DNA from: Pseudomonas capeferrum
GTDB lineage: Bacteria > Pseudomonadota > Gammaproteobacteria > Pseudomonadales > Pseudomonadaceae
NCBI RefSeq assembly: GCF_000731675.1
Contig: NZ_JMIT01000004.1
Span: forward strand, 124,001-188,000
Length of the DNA: 64,000 nucleotides
Reading direction: 5' to 3'
Every line of letters begins with the position of its first letter. The stretch's first letter is position 1. Under the pieces are notes generated by a model. It did not search any database and was not told where the DNA came from. It worked only from the letters and a program-made list of their open reading frames with translations. Shown here piece after piece: positions 42,752 through 44,574 of this stretch. The position numbers were made by a program, and so were the translations under genes.

Positions 42752-43891
42752 ATGAACAGCCCAATGTGGATCTGGCAGCAACCCGACTGGCCCCATTTCC
42801 AATGGCAAAGCGAGCCAATCGGGGCCTTGCTACGCGGTTGCGTCGACAGGCAAGGACGCTTACTGGGCAAGATCGGCTCCATCGACGCGCTCAGTGAGTG
42901 CCAGAACATCCTGGATACCCTCCTGCAGAACATTGTCACTTCGTCGGCGATCGAGGGTGAACAGTTGAACGTGGGTTCCGTGCGCTCCTCGCTCGCACGA
43001 CGCTTGGGCATCCATGAACAAGGCCCGACCACTGTCCGCAGCGAAGGGCTCGCGCAACTGATGCTGGATGCGACGCAAGGGTACGACCAGCCGCTGACCT
43101 TGCAGCGTCTGTTCACCTGGCATCACTGGTTGTTCCCTGCGGTGGAAGAAAGCCTGAGCAAAGCGATACGGGTGGGCCAGCTGCGTGCCGAGGCACCGAT
43201 GCAGGTGATTTCAGGACGCCTCGACAAGCCCACGGTACATTTCCAGGCACCGCCCCGTGATAGCCTGGAAGGACAGGTCGATGCTTTTCTCGACTGGTTT
43301 GCCAGCAGCCGCCAAGCAACCAACCTGGACCCGCTGTTACGTGCAGGCATCGCGCATTTCTGGTTCGTCACGCTGCACCCTTTCGACGATGGCAATGGCC
43401 GCCTGACCCGGGCCATCACCGACTTGGCGCTGGCTCAGGCAGAGCGGCAGGCGATTCGTTTCTATGCCATGTCTGCAAGCATCCTCGAAGACCGGACTGG
43501 CTATTACCAGATATTGGAGAGCAGTCAGAAAGGCGACCTTGATATCACCCGCTGGCTGACCTGGTTTCTCGAAACCCTGCTACGCAGTCTCGAACAGGCT
43601 TTGCTGAATATCGACCGGATACTCAGCAAAGCCAGGTTCTGGCAAACACACCGCGCGGACGGCCTGTTGCCCGAACAGGTCAAGGTACTTAACAGGCTGC
43701 TCGACGGAGGCCCACGCGGCTTCGAAGACGGTATCAATGCCGCGCAGTACCAGGCCGTGGCGAAAGTCTCCAAGGCCACCGCAACCCGTCACCTCACCGA
43801 CCTGCTCGACAAGGCTTGCCTGACCCGCCTGCCAGGTGGAGGGCGCAGCACACGTTATCGCATCAATACTCAGGACATCCCAAGCGCCTGA
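42752..43891 (+). CDS. Fic-domain protein (class II, DUF4172 N-terminus, winged-helix C-terminus)
   Basis: Predicted AMP- (or other nucleotide-) transferase of 379 aa acting on protein hydroxyl groups. The N-terminal DUF4172-like domain (WIWQQPDWPHFQW) is followed by the inhibitory helix motif S64-x-x-x-E68-G69 (class II, self-inhibited) and the catalytic motif HPFDDGNGR at 209-217, all residues intact. The C-terminal ~70 residues form a winged helix (VAKVSKATATRHLTDLLDKA, then a RSTRYRI wing). It stands alone without an antitoxin gene. The C-terminal DNA-binding domain and the palindromes upstream suggest autoregulation (inference). GGTGGAG lies upstream of the ATG. Confidence 0.9.
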   Translation: MNSPMWIWQQPDWPHFQWQSEPIGALLRGCVDRQGRLLGKIGSIDALSECQNILDTLLQNIVTSSAIEGEQLNVGSVRSSLARRLGIHEQGPTTVRSEGLAQLMLDATQGYDQPLTLQRLFTWHHWLFPAVEESLSKAIRVGQLRAEAPMQVISGRLDKPTVHFQAPPRDSLEGQVDAFLDWFASSRQATNLDPLLRAGIAHFWFVTLHPFDDGNGRLTRAITDLALAQAERQAIRFYAMSASILEDRTGYYQILESSQKGDLDITRWLTWFLETLLRSLEQALLNIDRILSKARFWQTHRADGLLPEQVKVLNRLLDGGPRGFEDGINAAQYQAVAKVSKATATRHLTDLLDKACLTRLPGGGRSTRYRINTQDIPSA

Positions 43892-44168
43892 CGGGGTTCA
43901 CGCCGCTGGTAATAGGTGGCCATAAAGACTGATTTTCGATCTTAACGCCCCATTAATTTCACGCCGTCATTCTGCAAGGGCTGACGAAGCGATGATCCGC
44001 GCCCAGACAATACACCTCAGGCCCACTGCCTGATTCACCGTCAGCATGGGCTAACCAATCGATTAAAACGATATTTAGACGCTATTTTTTGCGCTTTTTA
44101 ATCAATTTTATAAGCGTAGGATTAAACCCATAGAAACAACAACCCCTCGCCACCCTGGAGCAACGACC

Positions 44169-44456
44169 ATGAAAAACAAACTGATCCTCACCCTGGCCCT
44201 TTCGGTTTTCGCTGCTGGCGCCTTCGCCGAAGACGGCTTCGATCGTACCAATGCCCATACCTTCGCAGCGGTGCAAACCCAAGCCGCCACTTACGCCGAA
44301 GACGGCTTCGACCGCACCGGCGGCCAACGCTTCGCCGAGGACGGCTACGACCGCACTGGCGCCCAACGCTTCGCTGAAGATGGCTTCGACCGCACCGGCG
44401 GCCAGCGCTTCGCCGAAGACGGCTTCGATCGCACCAACGCTCACCGCATCAGCTGA
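44169..44456 (+). CDS. secreted repeat protein with five AEDGFDRT motifs
   Basis: 95-aa protein that I do not recognise. Residues 1-20 form a signal peptide with cleavage at AFA|ED. The mature 75 residues are almost entirely repeats: EDGFDRTNAHTF (21-32), a linker, then AEDGFDRTGGQRF, AEDGYDRTGAQRF, AEDGFDRTGGQRF and AEDGFDRTNAHRIS, a 13-residue unit encoded by near-identical 39-bp repeats. No cysteine and no hydrophobic core. A GGAG site precedes the ATG, and the upstream 277 bp are unusually AT-rich for this genome. Likely a periplasmic or extracellular, intrinsically disordered, acidic/arginine-patterned protein; function unknown. Confidence 0.85.
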   Translation: MKNKLILTLALSVFAAGAFAEDGFDRTNAHTFAAVQTQAATYAEDGFDRTGGQRFAEDGYDRTGAQRFAEDGFDRTGGQRFAEDGFDRTNAHRIS

Positions 44457-44574
44457 CCCCTGATGCGCGTACCCAGCCCGGCTTCGGCCGGGCTTGATCA
44501 TTTTCAGGCGGGCACAGGCTTGGCACACTAGAGGCCTTCGTCCCCAAGAGGTAGGGCAAGCAAGCCCAGCACCG

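Follow-up and report, generated by a model that had tools for sequence, protein, structure and literature searches.

The window, the 64,000-nucleotide stretch of Pseudomonas capeferrum DNA analysed here, carries at 44169-44456 a real gene for a repeat protein. Its exact limits, its length of 95 aa and its five repeat units, all claimed by an earlier note made from the letters alone, were borne out by the sequence and by open reading frame (ORF) reading. The features of the locus are as follows.

44058 to 44072, plus strand: putative operator box 1, ATC-N9-GAT (ATCGATTAAAACGAT), from an alignment of 51 promoters.
44091 to 44105, plus strand: putative operator box 2, GCGCTTTTTAATCAA, overlapping the -35 region.
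44117 to 44122, plus strand: -10-like hexamer TAGGAT, within a conserved GCGTARCAT block at fixed spacing in a near-gapless alignment.
44156 to 44160, plus strand: ribosome-binding site TGGAG, read from the sequence; GGAG lies just 5' of the start in 68 of 74 family genes.
44169 to 44456, plus strand: repeat protein gene, 95 aa, ATG start.
44169 to 44228, plus strand: signal peptide MKNKLILTLALSVFAAGAFA, conserved in the alignment, cleavage site judged by eye.
44226 to 44264, plus strand: unit 1, AEDGFDRTNAHTF; its first A is also counted as the last signal peptide residue.
44295 to 44333, plus strand: unit 2, AEDGFDRTGGQRF, from the TRF array and unit reading.
44334 to 44372, plus strand: unit 3, AEDGYDRTGAQRF, from the TRF array and unit reading.
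44373 to 44411, plus strand: unit 4, AEDGFDRTGGQRF, from the TRF array and unit reading.
44412 to 44450, plus strand: unit 5, AEDGFDRTNAHRI, from the TRF array and unit reading.
44475 to 44494, plus strand: terminator-like hairpin AGCCCGGCTTCGGCCGGGCT, weak alone (709 bases contain 2 such sites, where shuffles predict 0.8).

The units start at residues 20, 43, 56, 69 and 82 and contain AEDGFDRT four times and AEDGYDRT once. The earlier description of nearly the whole protein as a 13-residue unit holds for these five units, but ten non-repeat residues split unit 1 from the rest, and an exact 13-aa tandem exists for the last four only. At the DNA level, the near-identical 39-bp repeats proposed earlier form a TRF array at 44294-44435 (3.6 copies, 86% matches, score 228), and the first 33 bases of the last four units agree pairwise at 25-30 of 33 positions. 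Secretion, predicted in the same note, is supported by a signal peptide conserved in 16 aligned relatives, and the TGGAG justifies its mention of a good ribosome-binding site. The mature part, taken as residues 21-95 with a cleavage site of our own reading, holds 10 Asp and 9 Arg, has a computed pI of 4.6 and contains no Lys, Met, Leu, Pro or Trp and, as described earlier, no Cys; the 95-aa protein has two His and its mature part no dibasic site.

Pfam and NCBIfam returned no family above cut-off for the 95-aa protein, in agreement with the earlier statement that no recognised domain is present; the candidate DUF4148, which scored 14.2 bits where 27 are required, was discarded. The protein showed neither an anchor nor a surface domain, with none above the Pfam cut-off, and the best E value in a PDB sequence search was 0.26. 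The AlphaFold mean pLDDT of 45 fits the disorder predicted earlier and is no proof of it. We conclude that the product is probably a Sec-exported disordered polyampholyte of a repeated 13-residue unit. The hairpin at 44475-44494 suggests a single-gene transcript. Opposite the repeat gene runs an antisense ORF of 148 aa (44082-44528), which was assumed to be a by-product of the repeat composition. A structured RNA leader was dismissed, the sole Rfam match being below the gathering score and on the opposite strand.

The repeat gene is flanked on one side by a Fic/DUF4172 gene (42752-43891) and on the other by a gene with a flavin-reductase domain. At 13 of 15 window-type loci, by which we mean family genes and promoters of the 44169-44456 kind, the adjoining cluster is that of an MFS permease or of an ORF running antisense to the permease; a flavin-reductase cluster adjoins 9 of the 15; L047 and L053 are located elsewhere. 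The Fic/DUF4172 gene, placed between the MFS permease and the repeat gene, is a singleton cluster among the compared loci. In some genomes the unit at the window-type position is ADGADHVGANR. Other paralogues lie at other places, one group having AsmA, TetR and urease accessory genes as neighbours; neighbours are conserved at some positions only, with no neighbour cluster common to all family positions.

The earlier view that the protein stands alone could not be maintained. It is a member of a large multi-copy Pseudomonas family of small exported repeat proteins with a GxD core every 12-15 residues, and it carries the family's signal peptide followed by at least three G-x-D units mostly 12-15 aa apart. 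When 38 genomes were searched at the protein level, 24 of the 25 genus genomes matched and none of the 13 others did. The profile search suggested in the earlier note was run with a 12-member profile, which matched 101 of 198 Pseudomonadaceae genomes, spread over 10 of 19 genera, as well as one of 274 class genomes, namely the window's own. Of 68 regions fetched, 65 were kept (L042, where the search reports an in-match stop, L054 and L093 were lost), and after removal of rows with a start score below 15, mostly antisense, they yielded 73 repeat proteins, which with the window's own contain 572 core units. These units were located with a regular expression in which the Gly is fixed and the residues around it are restricted. 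The spacing between units is 13 residues in 338 of 498 spacings in these 74 proteins, and 9 in one.

Among the best 80 of 264 relatives, a protein with 3-16 units was read at all 80 named-genome loci, which supplies the comparison of repeat number proposed earlier. Window-type carriers within this set include P. putida, P. guariconensis, P. entomophila, P. protegens, P. fluorescens, P. syringae, P. fragi and P. chlororaphis, and 11 equal-length orthologues from it gave dN of 0.02-0.21 and dS of 0.49-1.47. Lack of conservation, which the earlier note had named as grounds for refutation, is excluded, since orthologues are kept with dN well below dS; a repeat due to chance or composition only is ruled out by the same two observations. 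Within proteins, repeat identity was 0.92 in the core and 0.84 in the variable part, and between proteins 0.65 and 0.30 (47 proteins, 325 units). Differences between family proteins fall mostly after the core. A literature search with unit strings and PtrA-domain phrases retrieved no paper and no function for the family, in accordance with the earlier remark that no function is described for this repeat.

Copy number varies among genomes. The second family member in the window's genome (G000:C3:232023-232367; L034, L320) has 120 aa and five EGGSDRL units 15 residues apart, with a promoter of the same class as that of the 44169-44456 gene. Genomes G002 and G016 have nine family copies each, some of those in G002 being cut by contig ends. 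At L092 (6430-10906), five tandem paralogues with near-identical promoters occupy 4.5 kb, which looks like a recent expansion. In genus g22 the members are diverged, with AENGSSQTVDRLHKQLG-type units; in ten g22 genomes searched singly, two or three adjoining family genes were found in eight and none in G232. At L324-L341, also from g22 genomes, the genes are often paired. Their products have repeats of the AENGSSQTVDRLHKQLGV type and a C-terminus of which AESGGDTVFDAHLKA is an example, and the genes are preceded by an ATC-N9-GAT-like box and then a TCGTTTTNNAATCGA-like sequence. For paralogue L074, which has near-perfect repeats, two of five models predicted a beta-sheet (pLDDT 82.6 and 85.1), and because of this prediction disorder of every family member is not certain. 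The predicted L074 structure matched no PDB fold at E ≤ 0.001, and single-sequence structure predictions of perfect repeats are unreliable.

The AT-rich 277-bp leader described earlier has the right length, but it holds a conserved promoter module and is not a plain 5' leader. An 84-bp near-gapless alignment of 51 distinct family promoters, drawn from very different paralogues, gave the order ATC-N9-GAT, a second box that covers the -35 region, then GCGTARCAT as the -10 element and CCRTA; promoters entered this alignment by box 1 only, so that its letters are invariant by selection and the others are not. Box 1 falls at about -71 to -57 relative to the inferred transcription start, and TAGGAT is the putative -10 element; a generic sigma-70 scan found no promoter. 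Window-type promoters of the MKTKL class have GCGCTTTTTAATC as their second box; in the others it is mostly ATGAA[CG]TT.

At E ≤ 0.01 the promoter profile matched 61 of 74 family upstreams and none of 642 neighbouring-ORF upstreams on the reading strand, and the 31 control matches on the opposite strand all coincide with family operators. Thirteen of the 74 family genes have no module match, two of them with only 32 bases of upstream sequence. In held-out searches at the same threshold, a profile built without window-type promoters found 15 of 16 window-type promoters, giving the 44169-44456 promoter an E value of 0.076, and a profile from window-type promoters alone found 29 of 58 others; much of the signal was retained either way. 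The promoter profile matched in all 59 genus genomes. Thirty of 31 strong-match loci examined read into a family gene, the remaining one lying at a contig end, and 20 further match regions, mostly weaker, led to repeat-type genes (17), azoR (2) or neither (1).

Some loci depart from this pattern. At L138, L139, L140, L143, L148 and L150 the promoter class also drives a different repeat of 13 residues, ATETDPLFSDAVA, closed by a unit like AEGGSDRLIESR or AEGGADRLLERR; here the unit appears to have been replaced while promoter and signal peptide stay. At L142 an operator-like match (E 4e-8) is followed by a hydrophobic ORF of 30 aa, with no repeat gene. The own-genus genome G172 has three operator matches and no family profile match; these are possibly a diverged repeat type or azoR-type targets.

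Of the 20 further matches of the promoter profile, two read into azoR, beside a LysR gene. The 5.94-Mb genome holds exactly two copies of the pattern RCGCTTTTTNATCRA, one before azoR and one at 44091-44105; 0.04 occurrences are expected by chance at the window's base composition, and a reversed control gave none. The pattern was drawn up after sight of these sequences, and its value lies in its rarity. It is present exactly in 9 of 16 window-type upstreams, 1 of 58 other family upstreams and 19 of 21 own-genus azoR upstreams; 20 of those 21 have RCGCTTTTTNATC. Exact box 1, present in the 44169-44456 promoter, was found in only 3 of the same 21. Window, paralogue and azoR promoters align with a common layout in which the azoR promoter of the window's genome half-keeps box 1, and box 1 is visible in the nine g22 azoR match sites. 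Since box 1 stands at 3/21 and box 2 at 1/58, azoR and most paralogues share part of the module only. The proposal that the whole module is common to azoR and family promoters was withdrawn, as a recount leaves box 2 only.

A family-trained model with azoR withheld matched 15 of 27 regulator loci at E ≤ 0.011, two of them from other genera, and did not find the azoR promoter of the window's own genome; the pirin match in that genome was weak (E 0.096). In 14 genomes of other genera there were 49 matches at E ≤ 0.05, and among the 30 listed as loci the downstream gene was azoR in 10, a small protein of about 77 aa in 9, a repeat gene in 7, pirin in 1, DoxX in 1 and another gene in 2, the azoR, small-protein and repeat assignments having been made by eye. 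Genus g22 accounts for the pirin and DoxX loci and has azoR loci among its matches as well. The small protein is hydrophobic (MQVILDFLLLVGSLVELLLYVAL...) and follows the operator in the g22 loci L298, L301, L303, L306, L308-L310, L312 and L313; the one tested gave no Pfam match, and the protein is possibly a further regulon member.

The azoR-linked LysR regulator is present in 25 of 25 genus genomes, G007 having a second, 41% match. In the window's genome it lies at G000:C1:2571939-2572856, is 83% identical to the query orthologue and has as neighbours azoR, a protein of 104 aa whose start is signal-like, an alpha/beta hydrolase and a cyclophilin. Of 12 loci tested, nine belonging to g22, every one had the regulator beside azoR, with identities of 79.5-86%. 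The name PA3223 for the azoreductase is based on PMC4051601 and on gene order. By synteny the LysR gene beside azoR is the PA3225 orthologue, the locus order matching that of PA3225-PA3226-PA3227(ppiA) reported in PMC5527654.

According to the same source, loss of PA3225 raises PA1210 (pirin) by 4.16 log2, or 38-fold by qPCR, and also raises PA2864 and the regulator's own operon; a MEME search by Hall et al. found no motif for PA3225 (PMC5527654). In the portion of PMC5527654 available, PA3223 is absent from the main text and the planktonic Table 3 contains no azoreductase; PA2864 and PA3229 appear in that table as unidentified hypotheticals. PA3225 is listed among regulators with putative sites at amrZ (PMC8041468, excerpt), and P. 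aeruginosa azoreductases are described as having NAD(P)H quinone oxidoreductase activity (PMC4051601, excerpt).

On this evidence the 44169-44456 gene probably belongs to the azoR-linked, PA3225-type LysR regulon, an estimate that we lowered in view of the poor conservation of box 1 upstream of azoR in the own genus; membership is less likely for paralogues without box 2. The complete reading, in which the exported disordered repeat family is the exported arm of this regulon, we favour by a narrow measure. An electrophilic or oxidised aromatic compound (a quinone, flavonoid or similar) would change the state of the LysR protein on its operator, ATC-N9-GAT / GCGCTTTTTNATC. Azoreductase, as a quinone reductase, and pirin, which is quercetinase-like, would then act in the cytoplasm. 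The repeat proteins, for their part, would be synthesised and leave for the periplasm or the surface, and there their many acidic/basic units, each binding weakly, might buffer, coat or sequester. The molecular role is inferred from the regulon, the composition and the repeat pattern: a promoter box common to the gene of a quinone-reducing enzyme suggests an extracytoplasmic role against reactive aromatic chemicals, and we put forward the buffer or coat function only tentatively, as somewhat doubtful, although of the roles considered it agrees best with the evidence. The operator position would also suit an activator, which counts against this reading, PA3225 being described in print as mainly a repressor.

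The regulator may be a different one. That another LysR-type protein such as OxyR, or different proteins for each paralogue class, binds the operator seems to us unlikely, if the most serious of the alternatives: the boxes lie about one helical turn apart, like the generic LysR/OxyR ATAG-N7-CTAT arrangement (PMC5720770, excerpt), window-type promoters and those of the other family members have unlike second boxes, and own-genus azoR has a weak box 1. Against this, the boxes differ from OxyR tetramers, box 2 precedes azoR next to a PA3225-type gene in other genera too, and pirin, a class whose dependence on PA3225 is known, also lies behind the operator. OxyR itself, raised by the box spacing, was set aside once the azoR and pirin promoters had been found. 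As for the protein, the sole hint of the metal or polymer binding suggested earlier is the likeness of the unit to the mature N-terminus of PtrA. A periplasmic copper tolerance protein of PtrA type, with the unit as a metal-handling element, is improbable. PtrA-type proteins do have one AEGGxDRxxxxM unit directly after the signal peptide in 18 of 20 loci compared (two were misread), NF041599 matches 8 of 12 diverse family members at E ≤ 0.01 (best E 8.9e-22), and PtrA is described as copper-induced and periplasmic (PMC8872213, excerpt); the 95-aa protein, however, scores 17 bits against the 31 required and offers no Cys or Met and two His, and nothing was found that traces PtrA's copper role to the unit. 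ATC-N9-GAT occurs within 250 bases upstream in one of 20 PtrA-model loci, 21 bases before the start. Copper or CopR as sole explanation was rejected, the box being absent from the family position at PtrA-type loci.

An equally improbable reading is a matrix or surface protein serving adhesion, hydration or as a scaffold and co-induced with the stress regulon. Multi-copy tandem-repeat exported proteins are often structural, and the long beta-sheet predicted for L074 in two of five models speaks for it; the missing anchor or surface domain of the 95-aa protein, the lack of a PDB match for L074 and the unreliability of such predictions for perfect repeats speak against it. More doubtful still is a precursor of secreted peptides, in which proteases would cut between units to free 13-residue peptides (AEDGFDRTGGQRF) and the variable second half would give lineage-specific activity, as in repeat pheromone or antimicrobial precursors. 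The units are in register with the end of the signal peptide, the mature N-terminus lying approximately at a unit start, their number runs from 3 to 16 among the best 80 of 264 relatives, and the repeats are homogeneous inside proteins and divergent between them (47 proteins, 325 units); slippage alone would homogenise them too, however, no neighbour cluster recurs at all family positions, and the mature protein has no dibasic site. Least probable of all, and a long shot in our estimation, is the combination in which a quinone-responsive LysR protein switches on an expandable exported repeat set that is cut into, or acts as strings of, 13-residue peptides. If true, some 'hypothetical' genes would conceal a system of secreted peptides, used to signal or to defend against plant and microbial aromatics, with a variable part that diverges between lineages.

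The exported arm of a PA3225-type regulon, the reading that we prefer, would turn many orphan genes into one testable system, in a gene class that is present in 101 of 198 Pseudomonadaceae genomes sampled and for which our searches gave no function. The two boxes provide a binding-site hypothesis for PA3225, whose published search gave no motif, and if the reading is true, a cytoplasmic quinone/azo-reductase response has an unexpected exported protein arm.

Several known systems resemble the locus in part. RTX nonapeptide proteins share short Gly/Asp-rich tandem repeats in exported proteins, but they have nine-residue GGxGxDxUx repeats, whereas the family period is 12-15, mainly 13, and the 95-aa protein lacks the GGxGxDx consensus. 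Bufferins are cysteine-based copper-binding modified peptides, and the exported part of the 95-aa protein has no Cys. YqjF is DoxX-like, and a DoxX gene lies behind the operator in one g22 genome (L314). In E. coli, yqjF is activated in dinitrotoluene sensors by the LysR protein YhaJ, the likeness being the aromatic link (PMC8882911, excerpt); the best NCBIfam model for our regulator, however, is PunR, below cut-off, with YhaJ absent from the 25 models listed, and the reported YhaJ box is unlike the family boxes (PMC11739112, excerpt).

The PA3225 regulon of P. aeruginosa comprises PA3225-PA3228, the PA1210 pirin, PA2864 and mexAB-oprM. It shares with the present system a syntenic regulator locus (azoR, LysR, alpha/beta hydrolase and cyclophilin in L176) and pirin behind the operator, and the window's genome has both the regulator orthologue and a box 2 like that before azoR; in contrast, PMC5527654, in the portion available, names no repeat protein and found no operator. 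PtrA (PA2808), of model NF041599, is called a periplasmic copper storage protein in a review (PMC8872213, excerpt) and likewise has a Sec signal peptide followed directly by an A-E-[GD]-G-x-D-R unit. Paralogues L049 (76.8 bits) and L034 (37.6 bits) pass the NF041599 cut-off, of which the 95-aa protein falls short. PtrA-type proteins have one unit and a non-repeat tail, whereas the 95-aa protein has five units and an azoR-type promoter box; the repeat family may be an expansion of the PtrA unit, or PtrA a reduction of the repeat family.
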